From the IMG/VR virus record IMGVR_UViG_3300050029_000153, positions 1-42,630 of that record: a stretch of DNA of 42,630 nucleotides; one strand, given 5' to 3'. The stretch is from a virus. Shown here piece by piece: positions 19,801-42,575 of the stretch. The notes under the pieces were generated by a model, which worked only from the letters and a program-made list of their open reading frames with translations, was not told where the DNA came from and did no database searches. The position numbers and the translations under genes were made by a program. Position 1 is the first letter of the stretch. Every line of letters begins with the position of its first letter.

Positions 19801-20222
19801 AGTTCTACTACGACGGCACCCTCTGGTTATCCGACCAATTATTCGTCCTGCCCCTCCAGCAGAACAGCGCGGCAACCCCGCCCTACGCAGCGGCCGACGC
19901 ACTCGTCTCGGCCATTCCTACGAACACGCTCGGCACCCGCCGGGATGTCTGGGTCGTCGGCTGGGCGTGCACGACGTTCGTCAATACCCCCAACGACGGA
20001 ACACACTACTGGACTATCTCGCTCTCCGTCGGCAACGCGGGCGACTCGTTTACTACTGCCGGTGATACCGTCGCCATCCAGACCCTGCACCGCCGGGCTA
20101 TCGGCGCACTAACTGGCACCGCCTCCGGGAACACCCGCGCCATCGTGTCGTGGGCTAAGACCTCGACCCCGGGGACGATCTATCTCCCGACCTATATCGA
20201 ATACCGCCAGGTCGCGACATGA
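16842..20222 (+). CDS. large tail tip protein, ReqiPepy6 gp37-like N-terminus
   Basis: An 1126-residue protein following the distal tail gene. About residues 1-370 resemble the siphovirus ReqiPepy6 gp37-like domain (SGRSLDGFIDTERIIVP, DARYRTLGETLRHIGF), a Tal/hub-type tail component. A helical connector (about 370-480) follows. Residues 490-800 are beta-rich and may be propeller-like. About 780-870 look like a small fibre module (HGLVAGDIVRF), and the end resembles a receptor-binding fibre tip. It probably combines hub and adsorption functions. Confidence 0.75.
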   Translation: MSQSRVVVLQTTDLGAAMTEPESYTMPSYVSVDITPQFWGGDMLKLVCNTGDPGTNTLAEGMFIWLPDEGNKIFWIEHVVTSRNTAARVGSTITASGRSLDGFIDTERIIVPAGAYDSVATVAAETAIKHYVNACAGTTAVASRQIPNFATVTDAAQGSTVTLDARYRTLGETLRHIGFLAGIGWYTYLDITTGLIMFDVIVPTDRSTSVILDFDLGTINEWDDEQNLLQSHSVAYVGGQGYLAQRTVQIRFQAGEPTGLGRRESFVSAGDIASTDAAGLNARGDAFLAANAPTRVTKAQITPNGAFQPNVDFFLGDLVEMTDTEAGTTILDRITSWTKHIENSAAAPTYEVSVGKPFPKADPDEVVPGVAVSDTTVVASLVAGLITAGSITSNTITADKFAATLALVSKIIAGNAIASRIELDQYGFRAYDASGNQTINIPTDGTASTFTGAIIAATLEATGLAAFDGTISNNKLSVETLQAGVQAPTSAPILSIGWPTALTLAAPPDASSQGCTLQAYSNAYYDAVGGGGTDPCVVAVGVFENGAIFSLQVVEWKISDGSIARQTVLTGLTYGAAQTQDVQGITRIGTSWYIAYIDGDFTNRVWKVTRSTGAQSAVATRSAASAFYVDIKTDGTNLYLLDSVSHPTGSVDTWATTPAYSSSKTLSGVTYDSGVLYSMEDDGTNWWIRGAVSGSSTNYMYVRSTGANTALHDFPSPASATPKGVVWDSTSSIFRTFGWDGVTTQLVPHTSWDWTTDNTIRVAYSWLADLTGKTGTAAASTDLIAWTGHGLVAGDIVRFSVLTSGTGLALATNYYVIAAGLDTNHFSVSATLGGSAIDITVNYTVVTGASWETAIGLRATKSTPSTTFGRRKQLTVTTSTIPVGGAADPNKVRIYMLQSSSDTGAGTYWLQVTDALTVRTLTGNTASGTHDGAGTAFPGGAGATLQSSSTSQGFTLKGNGAINYTGTTFPTGPATNDHYYRSDLQMEFYYDGTLWLSDQLFVLPLQQNSAATPPYAAADALVSAIPTNTLGTRRDVWVVGWACTTFVNTPNDGTHYWTISLSVGNAGDSFTTAGDTVAIQTLHRRAIGALTGTASGNTRAIVSWAKTSTPGTIYLPTYIEYRQVAT

Positions 20223-20497
20223 GCGAAGACGACAGCTCCGTCGGCATGACCGTCAAGGCCATGGTCCAGGAACTCTACGGCGACATGAAGGTTGTCCGCC
20301 CGATTGTCGAGGCCCTTGACTCTGCTAAGCTCGACCATCGCCTGACAACCTTAGAGCTCCGCTCCGCTACCGAAGCGGCTACAGCCGTCGCGATGCGCAG
20401 TACCGCTGTGGAGTTCTTCCGGCTCGGCCGGTGGGTCATCCTGACCGCTATTGGCTTGGCTACCGTCATCTCATCCTTCCTTCTCCTCCACCATTAG
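20219..20497 (+). CDS. XhlA-like membrane protein, probable lysis accessory
   Basis: A 92-residue protein with a charged helical N-terminus and one C-terminal membrane segment (about residues 70-90, VILTAIGLATVISSFLLL). This layout matches haemolysin XhlA-like phage proteins, which work with holins. It lies directly upstream of the lysin candidate and overlaps the tail gene by ATGA. Confidence 0.6.
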   Translation: MSEDDSSVGMTVKAMVQELYGDMKVVRPIVEALDSAKLDHRLTTLELRSATEAATAVAMRSTAVEFFRLGRWVILTAIGLATVISSFLLLHH

Positions 20498-20508
20498 GAG
20501 TACATGAT

Positions 20509-21408
20509 ATGGGCTTCGTAGGTGAACTTCGTGATCTCCCAGCGCACAAAGTCGTGGAGTGCGTCACTGCCTCTGCGCTGAACGCCGCTATCCGGGCCCA
20601 AGTCGGCGCTGGCGATACCGATGTCGAGCGCGAGCGGCTCCGCGTCGCGGAGGGTGCGCCCGCCAACGCCGGCACCGACATGCAGCACGCGCAGGCCGGG
20701 CTCCTGAAGCTCTACAAGATGCGCACCACCATCGTGAACGACTTCGCCTCCATCAAGACCGCGGTTGACGCCGGGAAGAGCGTCCTCATCCGAGGAGAGT
20801 ACTGCTCCCTCCCCGCGCCCTACCGGTTCCAGACCTCGTGCGCCTTCTCGCACTGCATCCTGGTCATCCCGTCGAACGTCCCAGGCAACGGCCGGATCAT
20901 CGACCCGCTCGACGCGCGCGGCGCCGATGGGCGACCGATCGGGAAGGACGTGCCGTGGGCCTTCATCAAGACCTACTGCGACTCGGACCGCGACAATGCT
21001 CTCATCGTCCAGGGGCCTCCGGCCGCGACGCCACCGCCTCCACCACCGCCACCCACACCAGTAGGAGTCACCATGATCGCCACTCGCGGCGGCCTCCAGA
21101 CCGGAGCCGTCATGCCCAAGACCCCATACACCCACGAGGTCGGCGGGGCCACCGTCGGAACCACACCTCCGGTGGCGACGCGCTACCTGATCCGCGCCTA
21201 CTCTACCGACGGCAAGTTCGTCGCTCTCGATGGCCTCTACGCCGGTCCGGTGACCGGCGTGTACACGCCCTGTGGTTGGGTGCCGACCTCGGCCGTCACG
21301 CTCCTCCAGGACGCGATCCCGCCCGCGGTGAAACCCACCGTGCAGAGGACCGTCACATCGGTTACCGTAGCCCTGAGTGACGGGACCACCGTCGCCGCCA
21401 AGCCCTGA
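20509..21408 (+). CDS. endolysin candidate with papain/C39-like peptidase domain
   Basis: A 299-residue protein. Cys18 (VVECVTAS), His115 (FSHCILVIP) and Asp132 (IIDPLD) are spaced like the triad of C39/papain-like cysteine peptidases. A poly-Pro linker (PPPPPPPPTP, about residues 174-183) separates it from a beta-rich C-terminal domain that may bind the cell wall. It sits between an XhlA-like and a holin-like gene. Peptidoglycan cleavage is inferred. GGAG at 20497-20500 supports the ATG at 20509. Confidence 0.6.
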   Translation: MGFVGELRDLPAHKVVECVTASALNAAIRAQVGAGDTDVERERLRVAEGAPANAGTDMQHAQAGLLKLYKMRTTIVNDFASIKTAVDAGKSVLIRGEYCSLPAPYRFQTSCAFSHCILVIPSNVPGNGRIIDPLDARGADGRPIGKDVPWAFIKTYCDSDRDNALIVQGPPAATPPPPPPPPTPVGVTMIATRGGLQTGAVMPKTPYTHEVGGATVGTTPPVATRYLIRAYSTDGKFVALDGLYAGPVTGVYTPCGWVPTSAVTLLQDAIPPAVKPTVQRTVTSVTVALSDGTTVAAKP

Positions 21409-21419
21409 AAGGGAAGCCA

Positions 21420-21659
21420 ATGCAGAAGTTCAAGGACCTCCTCACGCAGGTCCAGTCGCTACTCCAGGGTGAGCCCGCCCTCGTCATCGGCAACGGCGCC
21501 GCCGTCGTCATCTACCTCGTCGCCAAGGCCTTCGGCTTCCAGGACGGCGAGACCTTCCAGGCCGCACTCGGCCAGGCTGCCGCCGCGCTCGTCATCGTGA
21601 ACAGCGCGCTTGTCGCCATCCGCCAGTTCGTCTCACCCGCCACGAAGGTCGGGAGCTAA
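21420..21659 (+). CDS. holin-like membrane protein
   Basis: A 79-residue protein with two hydrophobic segments (about 20-38 and 48-67) and a short polar N-terminus, fitting a small class II holin. AAAGGGAAGCC precedes the ATG. It is last in the lysis group and is followed by a hairpin and a strong promoter for the next unit. Confidence 0.7.
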   Translation: MQKFKDLLTQVQSLLQGEPALVIGNGAAVVIYLVAKAFGFQDGETFQAALGQAAAALVIVNSALVAIRQFVSPATKVGS

Positions 21660-21700
21660 CACCGGCGCTTTCGCGGTCCTAGGCCGATCAGCACCGGGGC

Positions 21701-21724
21701 ACGGGCTCGCTACGGCGGGCCCGT
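21701..21724 (+). terminator. probable terminator of the late operon
   Basis: ACGGGC pairs with GCCCGT, and inside CGC-TACG-GCG forms a stem closed by a very stable UACG tetraloop, with one unpaired base on each side. It follows the lysis genes. There is no long T tract, so efficiency is uncertain. Confidence 0.5.
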
Positions 21725-21731
21725 TGCCATG

Positions 21732-21813
21732 TAGTACGAAAGTACTATGCGGTGTTGGTACTACAGACGCTGTGGACAACGACCTGGTGGGGCGGTATGG
21801 TTGCCATGGCAAC
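21732..21813 (+). promoter_or_regulatory. regulated promoter of the AAA+ gene (copy 1 of a conserved design)
   Basis: In order: TAGTAC-GAAA-GTACTA (21732-21747), GGTACT (21757-21762), 11 bases, -35 TGGACA (21773-21778), exactly 17 bases, -10 TATGGT (21796-21801), and a perfect palindrome GTTGCCATGGCAAC (21800-21813) over the start point. The same order and nearly the same spacing recur before 23301 and 42576. The upstream GTAC elements look like activator or repressor sites and the palindrome like an operator. Confidence 0.75.
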
Positions 21814-21846
21814 TTCGCCAAGGCACACCGGAAGGAACGAACCTCG

Positions 21847-23193
21847 ATGAACCCCACGACCTCGCAGCGCAACGACGGCACCTTCGCCGCCACCGTCTCG
21901 CCCGCCTTCGGGCAGGAGACCGAGACCTGCGTCCACAGCCACTCGAACGAGGCCGCCGCTGCGGCCTGCGGGAACTGGGAAGCCCGCGCAGTCTCCAAGG
22001 GCGAGACCCGATGGCACGCGCCGAAGACCCCTCGCTCCGCCAAGCGCGTCCTCGACTTCGCACCGCTCGCCGTCGGCGAGACCGTCGGTGACGACGATCT
22101 GGCTCACTCGCACGAGTACATCCCGATGCCCGAACTCGCGAAGCTCTGGCACGCTGTCGTGACCGGCGCGAAGTCGCGGCCCGCCACCAACCTGATGTTC
22201 CTCGGGCCCTCGGGCTCAGGCAAGACCGACGGCGCCCGGTACCTCGCCGCGCTGGTTGGCCTCCCCTTCACGAAGGTCGACTCCGCGAGCATGACCGACC
22301 CCGAGGCGTGGTTCGGGACTCGCGAGATCGTCGTCCAGGACGGCGTGGCGGTCACCGAGTACCGCCCGTCCGAGTTCGTCCAGGCACTAGGGAAGCCAGG
22401 CGTGATGCTCATCGACGAGATCAACCGCGTCCGCGACGAGCACCGCAACGTCCTTCTTCCTCTCCTCGACGCGACCCGCGCCGTCACGAACCCGCTCACG
22501 GGCGATGTCGTCGCTCGTCATCCGCAGTGCTTCGTCATCATGGCGGGCAACGTCGGCCTCCACTTCACGGGGACCAACGCCATCGATCCGGCCTTCATGA
22601 CCCGGGCCCTCACGGTCGAGTTCGAGTACATCGACACGACGAACGAGACCCGCATCGTCCAGGACGCCTCGGGCTGCTCCGTTGATGACGCCACCGTGTT
22701 CGTCCGGTTCGCCGGCGAGACCCGCGCCAAGGCCCTCATCGACCCCGAGTTCCTCCCCATCTCGACCCGCGAGCTCATCGAGGCAGGCCGGCTCGTCAAG
22801 GATGGCCTCAGCCGCGACCTCGCAGTCCAGTTCGTCGTCCTCAACGGCGCATCCGCCGAGGGTGGTGCCTCGTCGCTCCGGCAGGAACTCAAGAACATCT
22901 GGAACGGCGTCCGCCTCCTGAAGGCCGAGGTCGCTACGCCAGCGGCCGCGGCCGGCGCCTCGTGGTTCTGCGTCGGCCACCCGAACACGACCCCGAAGCA
23001 CGTTCCCGCCGGCGTCTCCGCCCTCAGCGGGAAGTCCTACAACGCCTTCGACGCCTGCAGCGTCACGGGATGCCCCGGCACGTCGGATCGTCCCGTCGCC
23101 GCCACCGCTGGCAAGGTCTGCCCGGACTGCCACATGCAGCAGGCCATCGGTCGAACCTCCTACTGCGCCAACTGCGGCGCCACGCTCCGCTGA
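21847..23193 (+). CDS. CobS/MoxR-like AAA+ ATPase with C-terminal zinc ribbons
   Basis: A 448-residue protein. Walker A is GPSGSGKT at 120-127 and Walker B is MLIDEINR around 187-194; AGNVGLHFTG and FMTRALTVEF give sensor and arginine-finger regions of MoxR/CobS-type AAA+ ATPases. The last 80 residues hold several Cys/His clusters, including VCPDCH and YCANCG, likely zinc ribbons. Such ATPases act with a VWA-domain partner, which is the next gene. No cobalamin gene is nearby, so a metal-chelatase role is not supported; remodelling of a protein complex is more general. Confidence 0.8.
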   Translation: MNPTTSQRNDGTFAATVSPAFGQETETCVHSHSNEAAAAACGNWEARAVSKGETRWHAPKTPRSAKRVLDFAPLAVGETVGDDDLAHSHEYIPMPELAKLWHAVVTGAKSRPATNLMFLGPSGSGKTDGARYLAALVGLPFTKVDSASMTDPEAWFGTREIVVQDGVAVTEYRPSEFVQALGKPGVMLIDEINRVRDEHRNVLLPLLDATRAVTNPLTGDVVARHPQCFVIMAGNVGLHFTGTNAIDPAFMTRALTVEFEYIDTTNETRIVQDASGCSVDDATVFVRFAGETRAKALIDPEFLPISTRELIEAGRLVKDGLSRDLAVQFVVLNGASAEGGASSLRQELKNIWNGVRLLKAEVATPAAAAGASWFCVGHPNTTPKHVPAGVSALSGKSYNAFDACSVTGCPGTSDRPVAATAGKVCPDCHMQQAIGRTSYCANCGATLR

Positions 23194-23270
23194 ACGAAAG
23201 TACTACGACCACAGGTACTTCCGGCGCGTTGGACAGCCGACGCGCCGGCGGGTATCGTGGCCTAGCCACG
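23194..23270 (+). promoter_or_regulatory. regulated promoter of the VWA gene (copy 2 of a conserved design)
   Basis: ACGAAAGTACTA (23194-23205), GGTACT (23214-23219), 11 bases, TGGACA (23230-23235), 17 bases, TATCGT (23253-23258), then CGTGGC-CTA-GCCACG (23256-23270). Order and spacing match copies 1 and 3 to within one base. The ATG at 23301 has CCGAAAGGAACC upstream. Confidence 0.75.
23221..23248 (+). terminator. perfect 9-bp hairpin around the -35 element
   Basis: CCGGCGCGT and ACGCGCCGG are perfect inverted repeats separated by ten bases that include the -35 TGGACA. It may terminate the upstream AAA+ transcript while the promoter restarts transcription, or act as an operator. No T tract follows. 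Confidence 0.4.
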
Positions 23271-23300
23271 AAGGCACTCGACCCCGAAAGGAACCTCTCG

Positions 23301-25253
23301 ATGACCGACCTCAACCTCCAGGACCTGGACGACTTCGACTCCCCGGAGCTCGAGACCGTCGCGCCCGCCGACCACGGGTACCTCGCCTCGATGTGGGGCG
23401 GCCACTCGTTCCGCGCCGGGTACCGCACGCAGAGCGACATCGCCAACGACACCGTCGTGGCGCACGGGATGGTCCAGACGTTCGTCAACGCCTTCGCACG
23501 CGACGGCAAGTACATCGTCAACTTCAACGCCGCGACCGAGACCGCTGGCACCGACACGAAGGCGCGCACCGTCGTCATCACGCCCGCTCCGATCGCCGAC
23601 TCGAACCTCACCGCCGAGCAGGCGGGCCTCATCCTCACGGGCCTCGCGGTCCACGAGATCAGCCACCCGCGCTACGGGAAGCGCACCGCGAAGGCCGTCC
23701 AGGACACGTTCCCCGGGAACCGAGTCGCGGACCGCCTCTCGAACGTCCTCGACGACGTGCGCATTGAGCGCCGGTTCATCGCCGACTACCCCGGGTACGC
23801 CGGGGTCTTCGAGCCCGTCCTCGACTACGTCGGCAAGGCCTCGACCGCGAAGCACGGCCACTGGAAGGTCACGCTCGCCGAGCCGACCAACCTGGCCATC
23901 GCCGCGATCCGCTACCCGTCCTGCGCGGTCTGGACCGCCGAGACGATGGTCGAGCGGACCTGGTGGACCGATTGGGCCGAACGCGGCTCGAAGGAAGACG
24001 CTCCCGCCCGCCACGTCGGCTTCATCCGCGAGGCCCTCCAGCATATCGCCGACACCAAGCCGGCGCCCGCTCCGAAGGCCGCCAACCAGGCGAAGATGTC
24101 CGGTTCCGCGGCGGGCGCCGCGAGCGAAGCCGCCTCGCAACCGAACGTGGACGCGGACGACGAGCTCGAGGACGCCGGCGAGGACGCTGAGGTCACTCAG
24201 TCGAACCCCGCTCCCGAAGCCGAAACGGCATCCACCTCCGAGAGCAAGGACGCCTCCGGGTCCGGGATGTCCGACGACGATCTCAACGAGGCCACGCAGG
24301 ACGCCGATCCGTCCGCCCGCCTGTACGCCGACAAGCTCCCCGATTGCTCGGGCAGCGAGGCCGTTGACAAGGCCGCGAAGCAGGAAGGTGTCGACGCCGG
24401 CGACATCCGCGGTCTCAAGCAGGACGCGGACCACATGATCGCCAACTCCCGGAACGTCGAGGACGACGGGCACGGGAACGCGGTCGACGTGGCCCGCTCC
24501 GTCCGCGGCATCTCGCACGGTCGGGCAGGCGCCCCGAGCTCGATGGCGATGCGCTACATCCGCAACGCGATCCTCCGCTCGCGGACCGGGAACACCGACA
24601 CGACGGGCTTCCAGAAGCGCGGACGCCTCGACCAGTCGGGCCTCTCCCGCCTCGCCTCGGGTGACGCGCGCATCTTCGAACGCCGCACCGCCCCGGCGCC
24701 CGGGAAGTACCTGGTCTGGCTGATGATCGACTGCTCATCCTCGATGAGAGGCGGGACCATCGAGGATGCGGCTTCCGTCGCGCACGCCATCGCGGCCGCC
24801 ACGGGCGGTACCCCGTCGGTGCGGATGGCGGTCTGGGGCTGGTCCTACCCGTTCCGCCCGTCGCCCGCCGGCACGGGTGTCGCGAAGGTCTGGGAGAGCG
24901 GCCAGGACGTCAACGAGATCTTCCGGGTAACGGGTCTTCGGATGGGCGGGACGCCCGACGCGACCGCGATGAGTTGGTCCGCTCGGGCGATCCTCAAGGC
25001 CCGCCGACACGACGAGACCCCGGTCATCATCTTCGCCTCGGACGGCGCGGGTGACAACAACATGAACCAGCGCGTGGACGAGGCCCGGAAGCTCGGAGTC
25101 GTCGTCAAGTCCGTCTCCTTCGGGTGGGGCTTCTCGCCCGCCGCGCAGGTCGCTCGGTTCGGCCGCGGGAACACCGTCCCGTGGGCGGGATCGATGACCG
25201 CCACCGCTCGCGGGCTGGCCGACCTCTTCGCGAAGATCACGAGCGGGCGATGA
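23301..25253 (+). CDS. CobT-like protein with HExxH and VWA domains
   Basis: A 650-residue protein. HEISH at 118-122 is an HExxH motif, followed by NVLDDVRIERRF, where acidic residues could supply the third zinc ligand. A long acidic low-complexity region (about 255-380) resembles the middle of CobT. The C-terminal VWA domain has a MIDAS motif DCSSS at 477-481 and FASDGAGDN. VWA proteins pair with MoxR/CobS ATPases, and the ATPase gene is directly upstream. A protease, chaperone or inhibitor-removal role is possible; none is shown. Confidence 0.78.
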   Translation: MTDLNLQDLDDFDSPELETVAPADHGYLASMWGGHSFRAGYRTQSDIANDTVVAHGMVQTFVNAFARDGKYIVNFNAATETAGTDTKARTVVITPAPIADSNLTAEQAGLILTGLAVHEISHPRYGKRTAKAVQDTFPGNRVADRLSNVLDDVRIERRFIADYPGYAGVFEPVLDYVGKASTAKHGHWKVTLAEPTNLAIAAIRYPSCAVWTAETMVERTWWTDWAERGSKEDAPARHVGFIREALQHIADTKPAPAPKAANQAKMSGSAAGAASEAASQPNVDADDELEDAGEDAEVTQSNPAPEAETASTSESKDASGSGMSDDDLNEATQDADPSARLYADKLPDCSGSEAVDKAAKQEGVDAGDIRGLKQDADHMIANSRNVEDDGHGNAVDVARSVRGISHGRAGAPSSMAMRYIRNAILRSRTGNTDTTGFQKRGRLDQSGLSRLASGDARIFERRTAPAPGKYLVWLMIDCSSSMRGGTIEDAASVAHAIAAATGGTPSVRMAVWGWSYPFRPSPAGTGVAKVWESGQDVNEIFRVTGLRMGGTPDATAMSWSARAILKARRHDETPVIIFASDGAGDNNMNQRVDEARKLGVVVKSVSFGWGFSPAAQVARFGRGNTVPWAGSMTATARGLADLFAKITSGR

Positions 25254-25471
25254 CGACGAACCACCGCCACGAACCCCGCGTCAACGAACGCAACGGCCGT
25301 TTCTTCTGCGCTACGTACAAGTTGTACCTCGACGTGCCGGCAACGACGGCCTCAGATCCACTCAGCGCGACGAACCAGGAGGAGCCGATGGAATACACGT
25401 CTTCAGAGGCGACCAACGCCTCGACCGAACCTACCGCCACGCAGGCCAACCTGGAAGGAGACCTCTCATGA
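25250..25471 (+). CDS. hypothetical protein
   Basis: Seventy-three residues from an ATGA overlap with the VWA gene. The N-terminal half is basic; the C-terminal half is Thr/Glu/Ala-rich. A second ATG at 25388 behind AGGAGGAGCCG could start a 27-residue product, so the real start is uncertain. Function unknown. Confidence 0.45.
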   Translation: MTTNHRHEPRVNERNGRFFCATYKLYLDVPATTASDPLSATNQEEPMEYTSSEATNASTEPTATQANLEGDLS

Positions 25472-25959
25472 TCCCCGAACTGACCATTGAAGAGTACCGC
25501 GAGATGCGGGCTGAACGATCCGCCTTGGCGCGTTCGTCCGCCGTCACGGGCCAGATCATCTCCGAGCTCTATGCGCGCTGCCAGATCTGCGGCCACTGCG
25601 AGCTCGCAGGCGGCTTCTGCTCGTGGTGCAAGACCGGCGATTACACGCTCGACCTGCACCTCCACCTCAACCCGAAAGAAGGAGCCGCATGCCCCAAGAC
25701 CCGAGTCATCGAGGCCACGTACCACCACCCGAAGAACCCTGGCGTTGGCTCGCCAGCACCGAAGCCCTCCAGCGCGAAGCCTACGGCGCCGATCCCGACG
25801 CAACTCGCGGATCCGTCCAGGCCCAAGCCGAGTCGCTCAAGTGGAACGCTCTTGCGGCGTTCGTCGAGCTCGGCGAGGCGACCCGCGAGTTCTCGTGGAA
25901 GCACTGGGCCTCGGATGGCCCGTTCGTCAACCGCGACCGCCTCCTCGGCGAGCTCGTAG
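25468..25959 (+). CDS. zinc-ribbon protein with out-of-frame overlap
   Basis: A 163-residue reading frame starting with ATG behind GGAAGGAGACC. The first 75 residues look real: a helix, then CQICGHC and FCSWC, a four-Cys zinc site. From about residue 75 onward it overlaps the dUTPase-like gene by 271 bases and becomes Pro/Ser/Arg-rich, as expected of an out-of-frame read. The functional part is probably the N-terminus. Confidence 0.5.
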   Translation: MIPELTIEEYREMRAERSALARSSAVTGQIISELYARCQICGHCELAGGFCSWCKTGDYTLDLHLHLNPKEGAACPKTRVIEATYHHPKNPGVGSPAPKPSSAKPTAPIPTQLADPSRPKPSRSSGTLLRRSSSSARRPASSRGSTGPRMARSSTATASSASS

Positions 25960-26099
25960 ACATCGCCCACTTCATGGGCAACATGCTCATCGCCGTCGGG
26001 GTGACCGACGACGAGTGGGCCGCCGCCTACCAGGCCAAGCAGGCCGTGAACCGTGCCCGTCAGCACGACGGGTACACCGCTCGAAAGGAGCGCGCATGA
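25689..26099 (+). CDS. all-alpha NTP pyrophosphatase (dUTPase/dCTPase/MazG-like)
   Basis: A 136-residue protein with the metal-binding pattern of all-alpha NTP pyrophosphatases: E60 and E63 (FVELGEA), FSWKHW at 68-73, and E88 and D91 (GELVDIAHF). Members hydrolyse dUTP, dCTP or other NTPs to the monophosphate. T4 uses an enzyme of this type to remove dCTP before making hydroxymethyl-dCMP. AAGAAGGAGCCGC precedes the ATG. It lies upstream of a thymidylate-synthase-fold gene, which suits a supply of dUMP or dCMP. Confidence 0.75.
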   Translation: MPQDPSHRGHVPPPEEPWRWLASTEALQREAYGADPDATRGSVQAQAESLKWNALAAFVELGEATREFSWKHWASDGPFVNRDRLLGELVDIAHFMGNMLIAVGVTDDEWAAAYQAKQAVNRARQHDGYTARKERA

Positions 26100-27004
26100 A
26101 AGCGTACCTCGCCGGCCCGATGTCGGGCATCAAGGCCTTCAACATCCCCGCCTTCGACCACGCCGCCAAGATCCTGCGGGAACTCGACTTCGAGGTGGTC
26201 TCGCCGGCGGAAGTTGACGGGCCCGTCACCCGCGCTCAGCTCCTGACGTCGCTCAACGGCGACCACGCGGATCTGCCGCCTTCGGACGGTGGGTGGAGCG
26301 CGTACCTCGCGCGCGACTTCCGGATCCTGGCCGACGACGGCATCGAGGCCATCATCACGCTCCCCGGGTGGAAGACGTCGCGCGGCGCTCGGTGCGAAGT
26401 CGCCGTGGCCGAGGCACTGGGCCTCATGCACATCGAACTCAGCGAGTTCATCGACCTCTTCCCCGACCACGCCGACCTCTTCCCCGACCACGCCGACATG
26501 TCGGTTGACATCCGCGAGGAAGTCCTCCCCTGGCATACGCCGGTCCCGATGGCCGTCCGCAACGCGCCCGGCTTCCAGTCGCCGCGCGTCCACATCGAGA
26601 ACACCCAGACACCGGACGAGGTCTTCCAGTCCTACGAGGACAACCCCGAGCGACAGCGTCAGGTGACCGGCGGCGTGAAGGACAACGCGAGCAAGCCGCG
26701 GGTCGATCTCATCCCGTCGAAGCCGCTCATCGGCGTCGGTCACGTCCTCGCCTTCGGCGCGAAGAAGTACAAGCCCAACAACTGGCGCCTCGGCCTCCGG
26801 TGGTCGGACACCCTCGGGTCGGCGATGCGCCACCTGCTGGCCTTCGCCGACGGCCAGGACCTCGACCCGGAGACGGGTCTCCCGCACATCGACCAGGCAC
26901 TCGCTCAGGTCCTCTTCCAGTCCGAGTACTACCACACCAACACGGGTATCGATGACCGCTGGTCCTCGACGTCCGAGGCCGACCGGGAGGCGGCGAAAGC
27001 ATGA
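26096..27004 (+). CDS. DUF4406 - MazZ-like dATP/dGTP diphosphohydrolase fusion
   Basis: A 302-residue two-domain protein. Residues 1-112 (YLAGPMSG, VVSPAEVDG, TLPGWKTSRGARCEVAVAEALG) fit DUF4406, a nucleoside 2-deoxyribosyltransferase-like fold. Residues about 192-290 (GGVKDNASKPRVDLIP, GAKKYKPNNW, AMRHLLAFADG, ETGLPHIDQ) match the N-terminal domain of phage dATP/dGTP diphosphohydrolases (MazZ). The linker carries a perfect seven-residue duplication. It probably acts on nucleotides, but no PurZ-like gene is present, so 2-aminoadenine DNA is not supported. Confidence 0.75.
   Translation: MKAYLAGPMSGIKAFNIPAFDHAAKILRELDFEVVSPAEVDGPVTRAQLLTSLNGDHADLPPSDGGWSAYLARDFRILADDGIEAIITLPGWKTSRGARCEVAVAEALGLMHIELSEFIDLFPDHADLFPDHADMSVDIREEVLPWHTPVPMAVRNAPGFQSPRVHIENTQTPDEVFQSYEDNPERQRQVTGGVKDNASKPRVDLIPSKPLIGVGHVLAFGAKKYKPNNWRLGLRWSDTLGSAMRHLLAFADGQDLDPETGLPHIDQALAQVLFQSEYYHTNTGIDDRWSSTSEADREAAKA
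26453..26494 (+). repeat. perfect 21-bp tandem duplication in the fusion linker
   Basis: Two identical 21-base units encode the seven-residue unit DLFPDHA twice. They lie in the linker between the two domains. Perfect nucleotide identity suggests recent slippage; the unit preserves frame. Confidence 0.9.
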
Positions 27005-27195
27005 ACGCGCAAGACGTCAAGGACATTGTTCAACGGATGCTGGACGCAGGCATCTACCCGTCAGACCGAGCCCTCTTCCGCGTTGGCATCACGATGAACA
27101 GTCGTATTCTTAGTCATCGCAACCAAGTTCTCGAGGCCAACGGTTACACCTACCGCCCCGAAGTCACTCATGGCGCGAAGTGGGTGAAGGCATGA
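27001..27195 (+). CDS. small hypothetical protein
   Basis: Sixty-four residues, helical, between the fusion gene and the thymidylate-synthase-fold gene and overlapping both by ATGA. It starts NAQDVKDIVQRMLDAG and contains SRILSHRNQVLEANGY, which could be an HTH-like helix pair. Function unknown. Confidence 0.5.
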   Translation: MNAQDVKDIVQRMLDAGIYPSDRALFRVGITMNSRILSHRNQVLEANGYTYRPEVTHGAKWVKA

Positions 27196-28007
27196 GGTAC
27201 TACGACACCTTCTCCGAGGCCTGGGTGGCCGAGCTCGAGGGCATCCGCCGGTTCGGCGAGGAGGTCTCTCCACGCGGCCAGGCCACCTCCGAGCGCCGGT
27301 GGAGGCAGTTCGCGGTGTGCGATCCACGCTCCTTCCCCGTCGTGGCTGCGGGGCGCACCTTCGCCAACGTGATCGGCGTCCTCGAGGGCTTGTCGCTCGT
27401 CGGCCAGTTCTCGGTCCCGGAGCTGTTCACGTCACGGGTCAAGAAGTTCGTCGAGTTCACCGACGCGGGAGTCTTCCACGGCTCCTACGGCGCGCGTGTC
27501 CACGGCCGCCTCGGCGACCTCGTGGAACTCCTCGAGCGTGATCCCGACACACGCCAGGCGGCGTTGTCGATCTTCGACAGCCGCTCAGACCTCGGTGTCG
27601 CCAAGCGCGACATCCCCTGCACGTTCGTGCTCCACTTCCTTGTCCGCGATGCCAAGCTCGAGATGCGGGCGGTGATGCGCTCGAACGACATCTGGCTCGG
27701 CACGCCCTATGACCTGACCCAGTTCGCCATCCTCCAGTGCAGTGTCGCGCAGGCACTCGGCCTCGAGCCGGGCACCTACGTCCACTCGGCTTCGTCGCTC
27801 CACCTCTACGAGCGGGACCGCGCCAAGGCCCTGCTCGTCGGCGCGCCCGACACCGAGCCCGGCATCACGGGCGACCTGTGGGGCGGCGAGGGCTCCATCG
27901 CGGACATCTCGTCGCGCGCTCGGCGCCTGTGCCTCGATCCCGTTGGCTTCGTGGCGGAGACCGAGTTCGAGGCCTTCTGTCAGGCCGTTCTAGAACCGGG
28001 AGCCTAG
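27192..28007 (+). CDS. thymidylate-synthase-fold dCMP (hydroxy)methylase candidate
   Basis: A 271-residue protein of thymidylate synthase length. The nucleophile is Cys143 in DIPCT; RSNDIWLGTPYDLTQF at 163-178 is the core nucleotide-binding segment and HLY at 204-206 the second. At the position where thymidylate synthase has Asn (E. coli N177), this protein has Asp174. That change is the known hallmark of dCMP hydroxymethylases and methylases. The predicted reaction is methylene-tetrahydrofolate-dependent modification of dCMP at C5. Ordinary dUMP methylation is the alternative. Confidence 0.78.
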   Translation: MRYYDTFSEAWVAELEGIRRFGEEVSPRGQATSERRWRQFAVCDPRSFPVVAAGRTFANVIGVLEGLSLVGQFSVPELFTSRVKKFVEFTDAGVFHGSYGARVHGRLGDLVELLERDPDTRQAALSIFDSRSDLGVAKRDIPCTFVLHFLVRDAKLEMRAVMRSNDIWLGTPYDLTQFAILQCSVAQALGLEPGTYVHSASSLHLYERDRAKALLVGAPDTEPGITGDLWGGEGSIADISSRARRLCLDPVGFVAETEFEAFCQAVLEPGA

Positions 28008-28009
28008 GC

Positions 28010-28459
28010 GTGTCAAGGACCCGGGCGCGTAGTTCTTCGACTTCGCAGGCAAGTGCGCCTAGAGTGACCCTGGCGTCCTCTGAGAGGGCCCTTGCACGCC
28101 GCCTCACGGACGAAGATCGCCGGCTGCGGGCGATCCTCGAGAAGACCTGGCAGTCGCGCGTCGTCCGGTTCGCCCGGAAGCACGGATGGGCCGTTGTGTC
28201 GTTCCACGCCTCGAGCATGGGCTCGAAGCCGGACGGCACGCCGATCTTCGCCACGGCCATCTCGGGCGACGCTCGCGGCTTCCCGGACCTCTCGCTCTAC
28301 AAGGCCGGCTTCGCGCCGATCTACGCCGAGTTGAAGCGGGAGTTGGGGAAGACGTCGCCCGAGCAGGACGTGTGGCTCGAGCGACTGCGGGACTGCGGGT
28401 GCATGGCCTTCGTGTGGCGGCCATCGGACTGGCCAACCATCGAGGCGTGGCTGAAGTGA
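28010..28459 (+). CDS. VRR-NUC-type nuclease
   Basis: A 149-residue protein with the PD-(D/E)XK pattern of VRR-NUC nucleases: a conserved helix near 50-60 (TWQSRVVRFARKHGW), GFPDLSLY near 90-97 and AELKRE near 106-111, then a Gln in SPEQDVWL. These enzymes cut branched or flapped DNA. The GTG at 28010 gives an N-terminus of about 35 residues with atypical codons, so a later start is possible. Confidence 0.75.
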   Translation: MSRTRARSSSTSQASAPRVTLASSERALARRLTDEDRRLRAILEKTWQSRVVRFARKHGWAVVSFHASSMGSKPDGTPIFATAISGDARGFPDLSLYKAGFAPIYAELKRELGKTSPEQDVWLERLRDCGCMAFVWRPSDWPTIEAWLK

Positions 28460-28776
28460 CCACGCAGCAAGACCGCCGCGACACTCTGGCCGCCGAACTC
28501 GCCGCGCGCATCGCCGCTCGCCCGGTGGTGCTCCCGAAGTACGATGGGCGGCTCCCGTTCCCGAACGATGCCCCGCAGGAAGCCGTCCAGCGCGAGGTCA
28601 TGATCCTGCGGCGGTCCATCGCCGCGCTGACCTCGTTGGCCGACGACCTGGAAGCCCTCTCAGGCGGCCCGCCGCCACCGGCATGGACCCCGGGGAAGAA
28701 GATCACCTACGCGCCGAACGCCTCGGCTGGGCCGGGCGAGCGTCGCATCCGCAGAACAAAGAAGGAGACCGAATGA
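28456..28776 (+). CDS. hypothetical protein
   Basis: A 106-residue protein from a GTG overlapping the nuclease stop. Residues 10-75 are helical and Ala/Arg-rich; the C-terminus has a Pro run and a basic tail (RRIRRTKKE). No recognised domain. It lies between two nuclease genes and is likely part of the replication/recombination operon. Confidence 0.55.
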   Translation: MTTQQDRRDTLAAELAARIAARPVVLPKYDGRLPFPNDAPQEAVQREVMILRRSIAALTSLADDLEALSGGPPPPAWTPGKKITYAPNASAGPGERRIRRTKKETE

Positions 28777-29168
28777 AAGAGCTCACGTTGGCCATCGACC
28801 CGGGCATTGCCTCGGCCTGGGCCCTCATCTCGCCCGACGGGGCACTTGCCGGCACCGGGGTCTGGGCCGTGGATGAGATCCCGGGGCGCCTCGACGCGCT
28901 GATCCGCAGGCTCCACCTCAGCGGCTACACGCTCTCGTGCGTGGTCGCCGGAGAGAAGCCGGGCCCGACGCGGGAGATGGTCATCCGCGGTGCGATCCTG
29001 GCGACACTCGAAGAGATCTACGAGTTGCACGTCCAGACCGTGTGGCCGAACGAGTGGCGGCCGCCGACGCGCGCCGTGAAGTGCCCATGGCGCTACGGCG
29101 GGGTGCCGCTCACACTCGACCAGAAGAACGCCTACAAGATGGCGCTCTTCGCGCGAGGCCTCGCGTGA
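28773..29168 (+). CDS. RuvC-like Holliday junction resolvase
   Basis: A 131-residue RNase H-fold protein. LAIDPG with Asp9, Glu61 in VAGEKPG and Asp116 in LDQKNAYKMA give three acidic residues in RuvC order. Phage RuvC-like resolvases cut recombination or packaging intermediates. GAAGGAGACCG precedes the ATG. The final 'DxxDA' helix of RuvC is altered to DQKNAYKM, so activity should be tested. Confidence 0.7.
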   Translation: MKELTLAIDPGIASAWALISPDGALAGTGVWAVDEIPGRLDALIRRLHLSGYTLSCVVAGEKPGPTREMVIRGAILATLEEIYELHVQTVWPNEWRPPTRAVKCPWRYGGVPLTLDQKNAYKMALFARGLA

Positions 29169-30250
29169 AGGCCCCCACCGGCGAGGAGTGGCGGACGCCC
29201 GTCGACATCACGTCCACCTCGGCCACCGAGCGGGCTGGCTTCCGGAAGTGCCGGCGCCAGTGGTTCCTGACCGTCGCGCACCGGCTCGACCGGCAGGAGC
29301 CCAACGTCCACTTCTTCCTCGGGACGATCTACCACAGTGGCCTCGAGGCCTACTACCGGGCACAGAAGATCGCCGACCTCACGCCCGAGGACCGCGACAC
29401 CCTCGCGCTCGACGCCTACCAGGCCGCCTACGACGAGTATATGGCCCGGATCAAGGAGCAGCTCGGGTCGCTCTTCGCGTATGGGGAGCAGATGTTCCGC
29501 GACGCTGGCGAGCTCGGGATGGAGATGCTCCAGAACTACCTCGAGCACGAACGAACCGACCCGCTCCTCGATGAGGTCATCGCCGTCGAGTTCCGGGTCA
29601 ACGTCGACATCGTCCACCCCGACACGGGCGACGCTGTGGGCACCCTGTCCGTCCAGGCCGACGTGGTGGGCATGAAGGACGGCGAGCTCGTCGTGTGCGA
29701 CCACAAGACAGCGTCGCGGGTGATGCCCTCGGCCCACCTCGACCTCGATGACCAGCTCACTGCCGAGGTCTTCGCGTGGTGGCAGGCCACGGGGAACTTC
29801 CCCGAGAAGGCCATCTACAACGTGTCCATGAAGCGCGCGCCGAAGCCACCCGCGCTGCTAAAGTCCGGGAAGCTCTCCAAGGCCAAGGGTATGGTCACGA
29901 CGGCGGCGATGTACCGCGCCGAGATCGCACTGCGCGGCCTCGACATCGCGGACTACGTCGACTTCATCGCGTACCTCGTCCAGCTCGAGGAGAGCGGTGA
30001 GGATCGCCTCTTCCGTCGTGAGGCGGTGTTCCGCACGCCAGGCCAGATGGCCGCGTTCGAGCGCGACCTCTACTGGGAGTTCACGGACATGCAGGCGGTG
30101 GGCGCCGACCCGTCGCGAGCCTACCCGAACCCGACCAGCGACAACTGCTCGCGGTGTCCCGTCCGGGCCATCTGCACCACGATCCAGGATGACGGCGACG
30201 TTGCCGCGATCATCCAGGCCGGGTACGTCATCGCCGATCCAAGGCGATGA
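29165..30250 (+). CDS. RecB/Cas4-family nuclease with Fe-S cluster motif
   Basis: A 361-residue protein. QADVVG with Asp166 and VCDHKTA at 178-184 form the PD-(D/E)XK core, and DDQLTAEVFAWW supplies the family's Q motif. Cys29 together with Cys328, Cys331 and Cys337 (NCSRCPVRAIC) match the four-Cys iron-sulphur arrangement of Cas4/AddB-like nucleases. Such phage exonucleases process ends for recombination. It begins at a GTG overlapping the RuvC-like gene. Confidence 0.82.
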   Translation: MKAPTGEEWRTPVDITSTSATERAGFRKCRRQWFLTVAHRLDRQEPNVHFFLGTIYHSGLEAYYRAQKIADLTPEDRDTLALDAYQAAYDEYMARIKEQLGSLFAYGEQMFRDAGELGMEMLQNYLEHERTDPLLDEVIAVEFRVNVDIVHPDTGDAVGTLSVQADVVGMKDGELVVCDHKTASRVMPSAHLDLDDQLTAEVFAWWQATGNFPEKAIYNVSMKRAPKPPALLKSGKLSKAKGMVTTAAMYRAEIALRGLDIADYVDFIAYLVQLEESGEDRLFRREAVFRTPGQMAAFERDLYWEFTDMQAVGADPSRAYPNPTSDNCSRCPVRAICTTIQDDGDVAAIIQAGYVIADPRR

Positions 30251-30258
30251 TCCCGTGG

Positions 30259-30264
30259 TACGAT
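30259..30264 (+). promoter_or_regulatory. extended -10 promoter with overlapping dyad
   Basis: GTGG-TACGAT matches an extended -10. ATGATC (30247-30252) and GATCAT (30262-30267) form an inverted repeat overlapping it. The predicted leader of about 16 bases contains AAAGGAG for the small membrane protein gene. Confidence 0.4.
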
Positions 30265-30286
30265 CATTCCCCACGAAAGGAGCGCT

Positions 30287-30430
30287 ATGACCCGACCACT
30301 TAGGCCGGTGCCCGCATCGACGCCCGTACAAGGTTGTGGCTGCTTGATGGTCCTGTTGATCCTCGGCGGTTGCGTTGCTATCCTCGGCGCGGCGTTCGGC
30401 ATCGGGCTCCACATCGTCGGCTTCCACTGA
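30287..30430 (+). CDS. 47-residue single-span membrane protein
   Basis: The ATG follows CGAAAGGAGCGCT, an excellent ribosome site. Residues 1-15 are polar; about 17-44 form a membrane segment rich in Gly, Leu, Cys and Ala. The stop overlaps the next start (TGATG). Such tiny membrane proteins can act in superinfection exclusion or host takeover, but nothing here identifies a role. Confidence 0.6.
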   Translation: MTRPLRPVPASTPVQGCGCLMVLLILGGCVAILGAAFGIGLHIVGFH

Positions 30431-31146
30431 TGGCCGTCAAGGCTCGGAAGCCCGAAGACGCGAAGTATCTCAAGGCCCTCATCCACAGCCCCGCAGGCCA
30501 CGGCAAGACCAGGTTCCTCGGCACCGCGCAGGAGGACCCGCGTACCTTCCCGATGGCGTTCCTCTCGTTCGAAGGCGGCGAGATGACTCTTTCTGGCCTG
30601 GATATCGACGTGTTCGACATCCGGGACGGCAAGGACTACGAGGATGTGTACAAGCAGCTCCGACGTGCGGACACCCCGTACAAGTCCGTCGGCGTCGACA
30701 GCATCACCGAGACCCAGATCAGCACCTTGCTGCAGATCCTGGGGACGGACACCGTCAACCGAGCGGACCCGGACCAGCTCGCTCAGCAGGACTGGGGCAT
30801 CGTCCTTGTCCGTATGCGTCGGATCGTGCGTGAGTACGTGAAGATGCTCCCGATGCACGTGTTCATGACCGCCCTGTCGAAGGACGAGATGGTGGCGCGC
30901 GTCGGCTCAGTCAAAGCACCCTCGATGCAGGGCCAGTTCGCCAACGAGCTGCCCGGCATCATGGATGTGGTTGCTTACCTCGCCCTTGAAGACAACCCCG
31001 ACACGGGAGGGGCCCAACGTATCCTGCTCCTGCATGATTACCCAAAGTTCTCGTGCAAGACCAGAACTCCGTGGAACACTACGGTGCCCAGTGAGATCGT
31101 TGACCCAACGATCACAAAGTTGCTCGACGCGTTGGGATACAAGTAG
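30430..31146 (+). CDS. Sak4-like RecA-fold ATPase
   Basis: A 238-residue protein with Walker A HSPAGHGKT at about 20-28 and a Walker B-type strand SVGVDSITE near 84-92. A Sak4/AAA_24 pattern follows, including VFMTALSKDE and a final basic strand. Sak4 proteins are phage single-strand annealing/recombination ATPases that work with an SSB, and the SSB-like gene comes next. Confidence 0.78.
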   Translation: MAVKARKPEDAKYLKALIHSPAGHGKTRFLGTAQEDPRTFPMAFLSFEGGEMTLSGLDIDVFDIRDGKDYEDVYKQLRRADTPYKSVGVDSITETQISTLLQILGTDTVNRADPDQLAQQDWGIVLVRMRRIVREYVKMLPMHVFMTALSKDEMVARVGSVKAPSMQGQFANELPGIMDVVAYLALEDNPDTGGAQRILLLHDYPKFSCKTRTPWNTTVPSEIVDPTITKLLDALGYK

Positions 31147-31238
31147 AATGGGGTGACTACATCCGCCTGTGCTCATCGTGCCACAAGATCTACGACAGCA
31201 TCGTAGACAACCTGAAAGGAGCTACACCATTCCGATAA
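31104..31238 (+). pseudogene. remnant of an HNH endonuclease C-terminus
   Basis: This frame has no start codon, but from about 31149 it reads WGDYIRLCSSCHKIYDS, closely like the last metal-binding part of free-standing phage HNH endonucleases (LCxxCHxxYD). It ends in TAA at 31236-31238. The ribosome site of the SSB-like gene lies inside it. Probably a deleted HNH homing endonuclease; chance similarity is possible because the match is short. Confidence 0.45.
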
Positions 31239-31816
31239 TCGCCGTGAACCTCGGGGCCGTCGAGGCCTTCGAGAACGTGCCCACCGGCACGTACCTCGGC
31301 CAGATCGACAAGATCGGGTACCGGGAAGCCAAGGAGCAGGGCAAGTTCGCGTCGCTGATGGTGACCTACACCGTCATCGAAGAGGGCGACTTCCTGGGCC
31401 GGAAGCAGTCCGAGTTCCTGAGCTTCTCGCCGAAGGCCCTCTACCGCATGAAGCTCTGGTTCGCCAAGTTCGGCCTCGGGGACGTTCCCGAGTTCGACGT
31501 GGACGACACCACGAATGAGCTTCTCGAGCCGGACCTCGTCGGTGTCCAGGTCATCTTCCAGGTGTCGAAGGACGGCACCCGGGATCGCACCGAGCTCGTG
31601 TCCGTCGAGGACGACATGAGCGAACCGGTGGCCGCGGCGCCTGCGCCGGTTCGAGCCACCCGTCCTGCCCCGGTCGCCGTCGCGGCGGTCGAGGAGGAGA
31701 TCGAGGAAGAGGAGGAGGTCGTCGTGGCCGCCCCCGTCGCCGCGGCACCGCGCCGCGTCGTCCGTGCCGCCGAGACGGCCGCTCGTCCCGCTCCGCAGCG
31801 TCGGTCGCTCCGCTAG
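31229..31816 (+). CDS. DUF669-like single-stranded DNA-binding protein
   Basis: Up to 195 residues. The N-terminal 120 residues (VPTGTYLGQIDKIGYREAK, VTYTVIEEGDFLGRK) match the OB-like pattern of DUF669-type phage SSBs. The tail is Pro/Ala-rich with an acidic run (EEEIEEEEE), as in SSB tails that recruit partners. The best-spaced ribosome site, AAAGGAG, lies seven bases before ATT at 31229, a rare start codon. GTG at 31244 is the alternative. It follows the Sak4-like gene. Confidence 0.7.
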   Translation: MPIIAVNLGAVEAFENVPTGTYLGQIDKIGYREAKEQGKFASLMVTYTVIEEGDFLGRKQSEFLSFSPKALYRMKLWFAKFGLGDVPEFDVDDTTNELLEPDLVGVQVIFQVSKDGTRDRTELVSVEDDMSEPVAAAPAPVRATRPAPVAVAAVEEEIEEEEEVVVAAPVAAAPRRVVRAAETAARPAPQRRSLR

Positions 31817-31830
31817 CTTTCACCCTCGGG

Positions 31831-31856
31831 GCCGGCGGTACGGGCACGCCGCCGGC
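31831..31856 (+). terminator. hairpin after the SSB-like gene
   Basis: GCCGGCGG and CCGCCGGC pair perfectly over eight bases with a ten-base loop. It lies between the SSB-like and polymerase genes and is followed by TCC, not a T tract. A G+C-rich terminator or attenuator is plausible. Confidence 0.5.
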
Positions 31857-31889
31857 TCCACCCCCAGTCCCTCATCGTAGGAGACACGA

Positions 31890-38356: not shown

Positions 38357-38466
38357 ACCCGAGTATGAGCCAGTTATGGGTGAGCCCGAAGTTCATACTC
38401 TCGGGGTCCTACTATGGGACCCGAGTATGAACGGTCAGAGGGCACAGTATGAAAGTGAGTATGGAG
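38349..38466 (+). repeat. iteron array (C)GAGTATGAR, six copies
   Basis: Copies lie at 38349, 38361, 38423, 38445 (CAGTATGAAA) and 38457 on the + strand and at 38391 inverted (GTTCATACTC). The region is noncoding and less G+C-rich. Clustered iterons are typical of replication origins or multi-site operators. It lies between the glycosyltransferases and the packaging operon. Confidence 0.7.
38391..38432 (+). terminator. long hairpin built from iterons 3 and 4
   Basis: GTTCATACTC pairs with GAGTATGAAC, then after a three-base bulge (TCG) GGGTCC pairs with GGACCC around the loop TACTATG, sixteen pairs in all. It could end the replication operon transcript or form a cruciform in an origin. Confidence 0.5.
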
Positions 38467-40569: not shown

Positions 40570-41120
40570 GGCTCCGGGTCGGCGTGGCCATGGCACCGAA
40601 GGGCGGTCGGACGGGGCTCGTCGTGGCCGAGGTCCTCGAGCGTCGGACGAGCCTCATGAAGCGTGAATATTCTTACATCGTCGGCCACGTGGACCGGATC
40701 ACCCCGCCGACGGTCGAAGAGGCCGCCGACCGGGTGGTCGCGCTGGTGAGGAACATCGCGGACGAGAAGCCCTGCGTCATGGTCGACACCACAAGCCCGC
40801 AGGGCGTGGCCCTCCGCGTCGCTCTCAACGAGCGGATGCCCGCCGGCCTCCACAAGGCCCACGCGATGGAGGGCGCCGGCATCTACAAGGACCTCTTCAG
40901 TGGCTTCCTCCAGACCTACAGCGCGTCGCGCGTCGCGTTCGAGCCGGGGTTGGACTACCGCGGGGAGCTCGACCGCTCGCTGGTGTTCTACATGGGCGGC
41001 GGCGTGGCCAAGCACGGCTTCGAGATCACCTCCGAGGACGAGGCACTCGTCGTGGCGCTCGGGCTGGCGCTCTTCTGGCCCCGCCACGGCGGGAAGGCGC
41101 GCATTCTGGACTATGACTAG
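40566..41120 (+). CDS. terL: terminase large subunit, nuclease half (split gene)
   Basis: A 184-residue RNase H-fold protein. It begins at the first strand of the terminase nuclease domain (LRVGVAMAPKGGRTGLVVAEV). Asp74 (VMVDTTSPQG) and Asp158/Glu159 (SEDEALVVALGLALF) match the second and third acidic positions. At the first position, where terminases have Asp (vGvDpa), this protein has Ala-Met. It should cut concatemers, if active, together with the ATPase half. Confidence 0.75.
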   Translation: MRLRVGVAMAPKGGRTGLVVAEVLERRTSLMKREYSYIVGHVDRITPPTVEEAADRVVALVRNIADEKPCVMVDTTSPQGVALRVALNERMPAGLHKAHAMEGAGIYKDLFSGFLQTYSASRVAFEPGLDYRGELDRSLVFYMGGGVAKHGFEITSEDEALVVALGLALFWPRHGGKARILDYD

Positions 41121-41143
41121 TACTTTCGTTCCCACTGTGGACA
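41118..41143 (+). promoter_or_regulatory. inverted copy of the GTAC element before TGGACA
   Basis: TAGTACTTTCGTT (41118-41130) is the perfect reverse complement of the 13-base element at 23193-23205. TGGACA follows at 41138-41143, as in the conserved promoters, but no good -10 lies 17 bases further on. It may be a weaker or differently regulated promoter for the genes at 41212-42409. Confidence 0.45.
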
Positions 41144-41211: not shown

Positions 41212-41400
41212 ATGGCACAGATCAAAGTCGCAGTTTCGTACGACGATCTCCACGTTGAGATCAATGTTCCGCCTCCACCGTCAGGTGTCTCTGTCGAAGA
41301 GAAGGTCCTGAAGGCGGCGGCAGTCGGCCTCCAGGACCTTCGCAACCAGGCCTACGACCGCGAGAAGGCGGCGCAAGACCTTCGTGAGCGGCTGAAGTGA
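41212..41400 (+). CDS. small hypothetical protein
   Basis: Sixty-two residues, with AGGAAAGGAGCCTC before the ATG. The N-terminal half has strands (KVAVSYDDLHVEINV) and a Pro run; the C-terminal half is a charged helix. It overlaps the HTH gene start and is first in a three-gene operon. Function unknown. Confidence 0.6.
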   Translation: MAQIKVAVSYDDLHVEINVPPPPSGVSVEEKVLKAAAVGLQDLRNQAYDREKAAQDLRERLK

Positions 41401-42008
41401 CACTTCAGATCGAAGTCCTCATGGAAGTCGAGGACGCTCAGCGCTTGTGCGACGAGATCCGTTCGGGTCTCGCGGGCATCGCGCCGAAGATCCTCGCTCT
41501 CCGCAACGGCCAGGGATGGCGTGCCCTCGGGTACGCGACCTGGGAAGACCTCGTTGAAGCCGAGTTTGGCGGCGTGATCAGCCTTCCACGGGCCGACCGC
41601 AGTGCCGAAGCCAAGGAACTCCGAGCAGGAGGGATGACCTACAAGGACATCGCGTCTACATTCGGTGTTTCCGTCCAGACCGCGCACAATGACGCTGCCG
41701 ACTTTCCACTTATTGGAAAGTTGGAAGGTGATGATGGTCGCGCCCGCCCCGCCTCCTACACCCCTCGTCAGGTACCGACGTTCGGTCCTGTCGGGACAGC
41801 TCAAGACGTGGCTCACGCCGATGCCATTGCCGCCGCGGTGATGGAAGAGGAGTGGTTCGCCCCCGTGACCGACGCGCTCGGTTTCATGCGCGACGCGAAG
41901 CACTGGCTCCTGGAGACCAGTTTCGAAGACCGAGACCTCGCCGAGGTCCGGAACCAGATCAACGAGATCGCCGAGATCGCTCGGTACCTCGAGAAAGGGG
42001 TGTCGTGA
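41397..42008 (+). CDS. HTH DNA-binding protein
   Basis: A 203-residue protein from a GTG start. Residues 70-100 (AKELRAGGMTYKDIASTFGVSVQTAHNDA) read as a resolvase/sigma-like helix-turn-helix. Before it lies WRALGYATWEDLVEAEFG, common in actinophage DNA-binding proteins. The C-terminal 70 residues are helical and may oligomerise. It is a candidate regulator for the conserved promoters, but that link is untested. Confidence 0.65.
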   Translation: MTLQIEVLMEVEDAQRLCDEIRSGLAGIAPKILALRNGQGWRALGYATWEDLVEAEFGGVISLPRADRSAEAKELRAGGMTYKDIASTFGVSVQTAHNDAADFPLIGKLEGDDGRARPASYTPRQVPTFGPVGTAQDVAHADAIAAAVMEEEWFAPVTDALGFMRDAKHWLLETSFEDRDLAEVRNQINEIAEIARYLEKGVS

Positions 42009-42414: not shown

Positions 42415-42452
42415 CTTCGTGCGCCAGGTGGTCCTTCGCTTGGCGCACGAAG
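42415..42452 (+). terminator. strong 12-bp hairpin terminator
   Basis: CTTCGTGCGCCA and TGGCGCACGAAG pair perfectly over twelve bases with a 14-base loop. It begins five bases after the stop at 42409. A second small hairpin (CCCGC-ATG-GCGGG, 42454-42466) follows. There is no T tract. Confidence 0.7.
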
Positions 42453-42472: not shown

Positions 42473-42547
42473 AAGTACTAGCGGTCCGGGTACCTTAGTA
42501 CCGGTGGACAACCCCGCCTTTCGCCGCTAAGGTTGGCCTTGCCAACC
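42473..42547 (+). promoter_or_regulatory. regulated promoter (copy 3 of a conserved design)
   Basis: AAGTACTA (42473-42480), GGTACC (42489-42494), 11 bases, TGGACA (42505-42510), 17 bases, TAAGGT (42528-42533), then GGTTGGC-CTT-GCCAACC (42531-42547). Spacing equals that of the copy at 23194. The downstream ATG has CCGAAAGGAACC, identical to the site before 23301. Confidence 0.75.
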
Positions 42548-42575
42548 TAGGCAACGCACCGAAAGGAACCTCCAG

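Follow-up and report, generated by a model that had tools for sequence, protein, structure and literature searches.

Organization of the cobS- and cobT-like gene region

The window, the whole stretch of DNA analyzed here, is a 42,630-base virus record from an environmental phage, and no near match to its 20000-32000 stretch is found among 50,697 phage records. The polymerase and portal proteins have their nearest counterparts in actinobacterial phages, and the host is therefore likely to be actinobacterial. No integrase, lysogeny repressor or CI-like repressor is found among the window proteins given to PHROGs or Pfam (about 41 of the 56 called genes), and the phage looks lytic; no tRNAs were found and an Rfam search gave no match. 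A CobS-like AAA+ gene and a CobT-like (VWA-type) gene are each preceded by a predicted promoter (P1 and P2), with further copies (P3 and the partial P4) elsewhere in the window. The features are as follows, with dyad centres given in nucleotides past the -10.

21698..21728, plus strand: strong hairpin before P1 (fold of 21660-21735 = -44.0), presumed end of the preceding unit
21732-21737: P1 inverted half TAGTAC, giving TAGTAC-GAAA-GTACTA with box A
21740..21747, plus strand: P1 box A AAGTACTA (GTAC 31 and 39 bases 5' of the -35)
21757..21762, plus strand: P1 box B GGTACT, 10 bases 5' of the -35
21773..21778, plus strand: P1 -35 TGGACA
21796..21801, plus strand: P1 -10 TATGGT, 17-base spacer, predicted start near 21808
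21800..21813, no strand: P1 dyad GTTGCCATGGCAAC near +1, run of 7, centre 5.5
21847..23193, plus strand: CobS-like AAA+ gene after P1, ATG at 21847 (Pfam AAA_5 and CbbQ_C)
23198..23205, plus strand: P2 box A AAGTACTA
23214..23219, plus strand: P2 box B GGTACT, 10 bases 5' of the -35
23230..23235, plus strand: P2 -35 TGGACA
23253..23258, plus strand: P2 -10 TATCGT, predicted start near 23265
23255..23271, no strand: P2 dyad TCGTGGC-CTA-GCCACGA, run of 7, centre 5.0
23301..25253, plus strand: CobT-like (VWA-type) gene after P2 (weak phrog_5298 match; no Pfam match at 0.001)
41118..41143, plus strand: partial copy P4, with minus-strand AAGTACTA (41118-41125) and TGGACA (41138-41143)
41397..42008, plus strand: helix-turn-helix (HTH) protein, candidate regulator (sigma r4_2 and HTH_7 matches below curated cut-offs)
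42415..42452, plus strand: strong hairpin before P3 (fold of 42405-42472 = -40.8), presumed end of the preceding unit
42473..42480, plus strand: P3 box A AAGTACTA, a copy missed in the first-pass annotation
42489..42494, plus strand: P3 box B GGTACC (GTAC at 42498-42501 gives GGTAC-CTTA-GTACC)
42505..42510, plus strand: P3 -35 TGGACA
42528..42533, plus strand: P3 -10 TAAGGT
42530..42548, no strand: P3 dyad AGGTTGGC-CTT-GCCAACCT, run of 8, centre 6.0
from 42576: open frame after P3, running off the record end

Joining the end of the window to its start as one reading frame was also considered and set aside, as a stop is reached after 44 codons. A repeat-rich stretch lies between homologous genes in the window (38349-38464; GAGTATGA) and in one relative, G004 (8734-8871; GGTTATGC), and these stretches could possibly represent a replication origin; the clustering was judged by eye, and over the whole window matches to GAGTATGA that allow one mismatch do not exceed chance.

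Architecture of the promoters

The element sets reported before the AAA+ and VWA genes are both present, at 21740 and 23198, and most of their described geometry is borne out: the gap between AAGTACTA and GGTACT, given as 8-9 bases, is 9 in P1 and 8 in P2, TGGACA is followed after 17 bases by TATGGT (P1) or TATCGT (P2), and the dyad over the start is an unbroken run of 7 pairs with its centre 5.5 nt (P1) or 5.0 nt (P2) past the -10. The gap between GGTACT and TGGACA needs correction, as it was given as 11 bases and measures 10 in both promoters. A motif search of the window shows that the pattern recurs, although only two copies had been counted: a third full copy (42473-42548) reads AAGTACTA-8-GGTACC-10-TGGACA-17-TAAGGT with a dyad run of 8 centred at 6.0, and a partial fourth (41118-41143) has minus-strand AAGTACTA followed after 12 bases by TGGACA, but lacks a convincing -10 at the 17-base distance. 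The single box of this partial copy is inverted and lies 3 bases farther from TGGACA.

In all three full copies -35 and -10 hexamers 17 bases apart (TGGACA-17-TANNGT) lie directly 5' of a gene, and two copies (P1 and P3) are just after strong hairpins. Transcription starts predicted near 21808 and 23265 fit the usual distance from the -10, about 7 bases, and a start near 42540 would be expected for P3; the GTAC-centred boxes lie ~48 and ~64 bases upstream of these predicted starts. The distance from GTAC to the -35 is 15 and 30-31 bases in the three full copies and 18, once, in the partial copy, while the spacing of boxes A and B is not fixed (9, 8 and 8 bases in P1, P2 and P3). The intervening sequences are indeed unrelated, pairs among the three full copies being identical at 6-7 of 17 spacer positions and 4-5 of 10 positions between box B and the -35. 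A reading of TGTGGACAA at P1 as a DnaA box was abandoned, since P2 and P3 do not retain the sequence.

The exact pattern GGTACT-N9..13-TGGACA is found twice in the window against 0.01 expected from shuffles, and the full pattern, which used GGTACY and TANNNT and was written after the third copy had been seen, is matched 3 times where base composition predicts 2e-10. GTAC occurs within 60 bases upstream of all four promoter TGGACA sequences but of none of the 10 other plus-strand TGGACA sequences in the window. The GTAC core of the boxes is palindromic, and all four exact AAGTACTA copies are upstream of TGGACA, with no dispersed stoperator-like copies. A dyad run of 7 at centres 4-7 has a frequency of 0.0023 among 20,000 random places, and runs of 7-8 pairs over the inferred start are present in 3/3 full copies.

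The leaders of the full copies are alike near the ribosome site, with sites of the GAAAGGAAC type. Treated as a shared 5' element, leader hairpins in the first 22 bases, a span picked after the folds had been seen, give a Fisher P of 1.7e-6 against shuffles but 0.019 against genome background, and the signal is weaker in longer spans. Leader hairpins of another kind are seen in two of the relatives described below. In each of three G003 leaders (37587, 36413 and 27952, minus strand) AGTCA lies in the loop of a hairpin whose stem differs from leader to leader, and of the 26 minus-strand AGTCA sequences there no others have a stem of at least 6; at G002 2121 the cobS leader holds the only plus-strand AGTCA hairpin of that genome (1/12), the minus-strand case (1/3) lying elsewhere.

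Promoters in related phages

Four distant relatives (G001-G004) were compared with the window record (G000), three found with the AAA+ protein as query and one more with the polymerase. Many genes are shared between G000, G001 and G004, and few between G000 and either G002 or G003. The AAA+ protein as query found no relatives in the genome collection, and the VWA protein found none in viral contigs or phages, although these empty VWA searches mean little since three of the four relative records found otherwise hold a VWA protein. An alignment search yielding 23 loci at 25-34% identity was swamped by the P-loop pattern and set aside.

It had been anticipated that the elements would be conserved in related phages, and this is the case for the core promoter, found as TGGACA-17-TANNNT at partly shared positions, but not for the boxes, which are absent from all four relatives. 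TGGACA-N16..18-TANNNT occurs on the plus strand 3, 2, 3, 0 and 6 times in G000-G004 (14 in total) and never on the minus strand, with shuffle means for both strands of 0.25, 0.54, 0.12, 0.23 and 0.18; G001 is not strong alone, its 2 occurrences comparing with a shuffle maximum of 3. In G003, which has its genes on the minus strand, three TAGACA-17-TANNNT sequences on that strand replace TGGACA, and the core of all four relatives is thus confined to the sense strand. The canonical TTGACA-17-TANNNT occurs in none of the five records. A CobS-like and CobT-like pair with a promoter before each gene is present in all four phages having those genes (21847-25253 in the window), the G001 cobS (TATACA) and cobT (-10 GAGAAT) promoters being hand readings and P1 being taken from the pattern scan rather than the gene-start promoter listing, as the gene caller had placed the start of the gene at 21772. 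A promoter also follows the terminase genes in G000 (the partial P4), G001 (2903) and G004 (11401). Five entries in which the -35 is not TGGACA were dropped from the counts (G000 27083; G001 16130, 22144 and 22812; G004 21512). Two of these, G001 16130 and G004 21512, are TCGACA-17-TANNNT promoters with a common ACCAC-GGCA-GTGGT leader dyad and similar genes downstream.

Pattern scans find no AAGTACTA/GGTACT boxes in G001-G004, nor was a dyad found in these genomes at the centre, relative to the -10, that it has in the window. Upstream elements in the relatives, often A-rich and adjoining the -35, are mostly genome-specific, being common within some genomes and different between genomes. The G001 pair is 12/14 identical, one of three G002 pairs is 14/14 (the other two 6/14) and one of three G003 pairs is 11/14 (the other two 7-8/14); in G004, 4 of 15 promoter pairs have upstream letters in common at P < 0.05, and the other 11 do not exceed chance. 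Beside the -35, the full copies of G000 are identical at 7-9 of 14 positions, with box B forming part of this segment. In G001 the palindrome GAATATTC occurs just twice, both times before the cobS-like gene and with a distance of 12 bases between the copies, and the pair may loosely parallel the two boxes of the window.

Searches beyond these genomes gave little. The box pattern has 6 matches in 2.9 million viral contigs, none with a 10-base gap and most in AT-rich, coding-like surroundings, and we take these as chance occurrences; a stricter pattern has no match in the same contigs or in 84,980 genomes. Distant blastn of two of the promoters against phages also gave no match.

A candidate regulator

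P4 is located between the terminase genes and a gene group (41212-42409) that includes the HTH gene, downstream of P4. This group has no blastp match in the four relatives, so that both it and the boxes are found only in G000. Given its position and this joint absence, the HTH protein at 41397 is perhaps the best candidate for a phage regulator acting at the boxes, the co-occurrence being a correlation drawn from five genomes, one of which is positive. The HTH protein has no relatives in viral contigs, and its structural model (mean pLDDT 48.7, with residues ~70-100 the most confident) is too poor for a fold search. Other small window proteins without family matches could also bind DNA. WhiB-like proteins (PF02467) were sought in the five phage records with no match, the search covering phage-encoded WhiB only and its control matching in C. 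glutamicum. Small HTH proteins are also encoded in G002 (5909-6091) and G003 (near 33783), in each case directly past the gene following the cobT-like gene.

Proposed control of the promoters

Our favored reading, advanced tentatively, is that the three full promoters and the partial one constitute one phage regulon, with a sigma-70-type core and regulator sites upstream. Host RNA polymerase would read the TGGACA-17-TANNGT core, whose -35 would be weak because TGGACA has G in place of the first-repeated T of TTGACA, at position 2. Polymerase would be recruited by a DNA-binding protein that the phage encodes, the HTH protein being the likeliest one, bound at the GTAC boxes. The dyad near the start may be a second operator or part of a leader structure, and the partial copy 5' of the HTH gene group could provide feedback control of that group. 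The first-pass annotation had invoked selection on protein contacts, with which the recurrent sigma-70-type promoter, the constant spacing with changing filler and the homologous positions are in agreement; for the boxes the evidence comes from one genome, since they are absent from the four relatives. Boxes that precede the -35, here at roughly -48 and -64, are more usual for activation, and these positions, together with the lack of lysogeny genes among the scanned proteins, make the regulator more likely an activator than a repressor.

Activator-dependent phage promoters are familiar from P2 (Ogr) and Mu (Mor and C), where sites for the phage factor lie upstream of a host-type promoter; the predicted sites here have a similar placement, but seem to differ in letters and spacing. 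The Cluster K mycobacteriophages, including Adephagia and TM4, offer what appears to be the closest known kind. Their ESAS/SAS elements are described as SigA-like promoters with inverted repeats, present in several intergenic copies before a subset of genes, and the repeat consensus varies by subcluster (PMC3203893, PMC11373665). The window promoters may work alike, being SigA-like and intergenic with several copies, the repeats here being the GTAC boxes and the +1 dyad. They differ in that the boxes end 10 and ~25 bases 5' of TGGACA, TTGACA-17-TANNNT is absent from the record and the phage looks lytic. We do not file them as ESAS members because two features that define that set are lacking: the 13-base SAS GGGATAGGAGCCC beside the start codon is not seen in the leaders, read by eye, and in place of 17-base imperfect inverted repeats there are boxes of 6-8 bases and dyad arms of 7-8. 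A more distant likeness is to the operators and stoperators of Cluster A mycobacteriophages, which are described as short repeated protein sites with a consensus that changes between related phages (PMC6550527), and which are asymmetric, number 20-30 in a genome and for the most part lie outside promoters; unlike these, the predicted sites in the window are four exact AAGTACTA copies with a palindromic core, all at promoters.

An alternative that we consider less probable is that a phage repressor has the boxes and dyad as its operators and shuts these promoters at some stage, as in Cluster A and as proposed for Cluster K. The dyads of 7-8 pairs over the inferred start in 3/3 full copies and the palindromic GTAC cores would suit such a role, and known phage repressors work at repeated sites of this sort (PMC6550527, PMC11373665). 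Against this, neither an integrase nor a CI-like repressor is seen among the scanned proteins, and 4/4 exact AAGTACTA copies are upstream of TGGACA with none scattered in the manner of stoperators. The location of the boxes upstream of the -35, near -48 and -64, is also commoner for activation.

We regard as unlikely, slightly more so than a repressor, that recognition of the boxes involves no phage factor and falls to a host regulator or, as with an UP-like element, to the alpha subunit of host polymerase. The core is a host-type promoter and the upstream elements of the relatives are often A-rich and beside the -35, but the GTAC boxes are not A-rich, they vary between related phages and the exact architecture is not found in 84,980 genomes. 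That the promoters are cassette copies made by duplication or conversion, with boxes as functionless relics, is very improbable, as recent duplication would not leave spacers identical at only 6-7 of 17 positions, notwithstanding the similarity of the leaders near the ribosome site and the within-genome sharing of upstream elements in some relatives.

Beyond the regulon itself, a broader and rather doubtful proposition is that this phage lineage shuns canonical TTGACA at its main promoters, using a crippled -35 (TGGACA or TAGACA) with an activator and box letters particular to each phage. If so, promoters would keep their positions as the box code turned over between relatives, and every phage would have a transcription address of its own. 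If the regulon interpretation is correct, these promoters would represent a small regulon in an uncultured phage group, in which the promoters hold their places and the DNA code that the regulator reads shifts, and would help in reading gene control from metagenomic phages; the set of boxes would also offer a way to tie an uncharacterized HTH protein to its sites.
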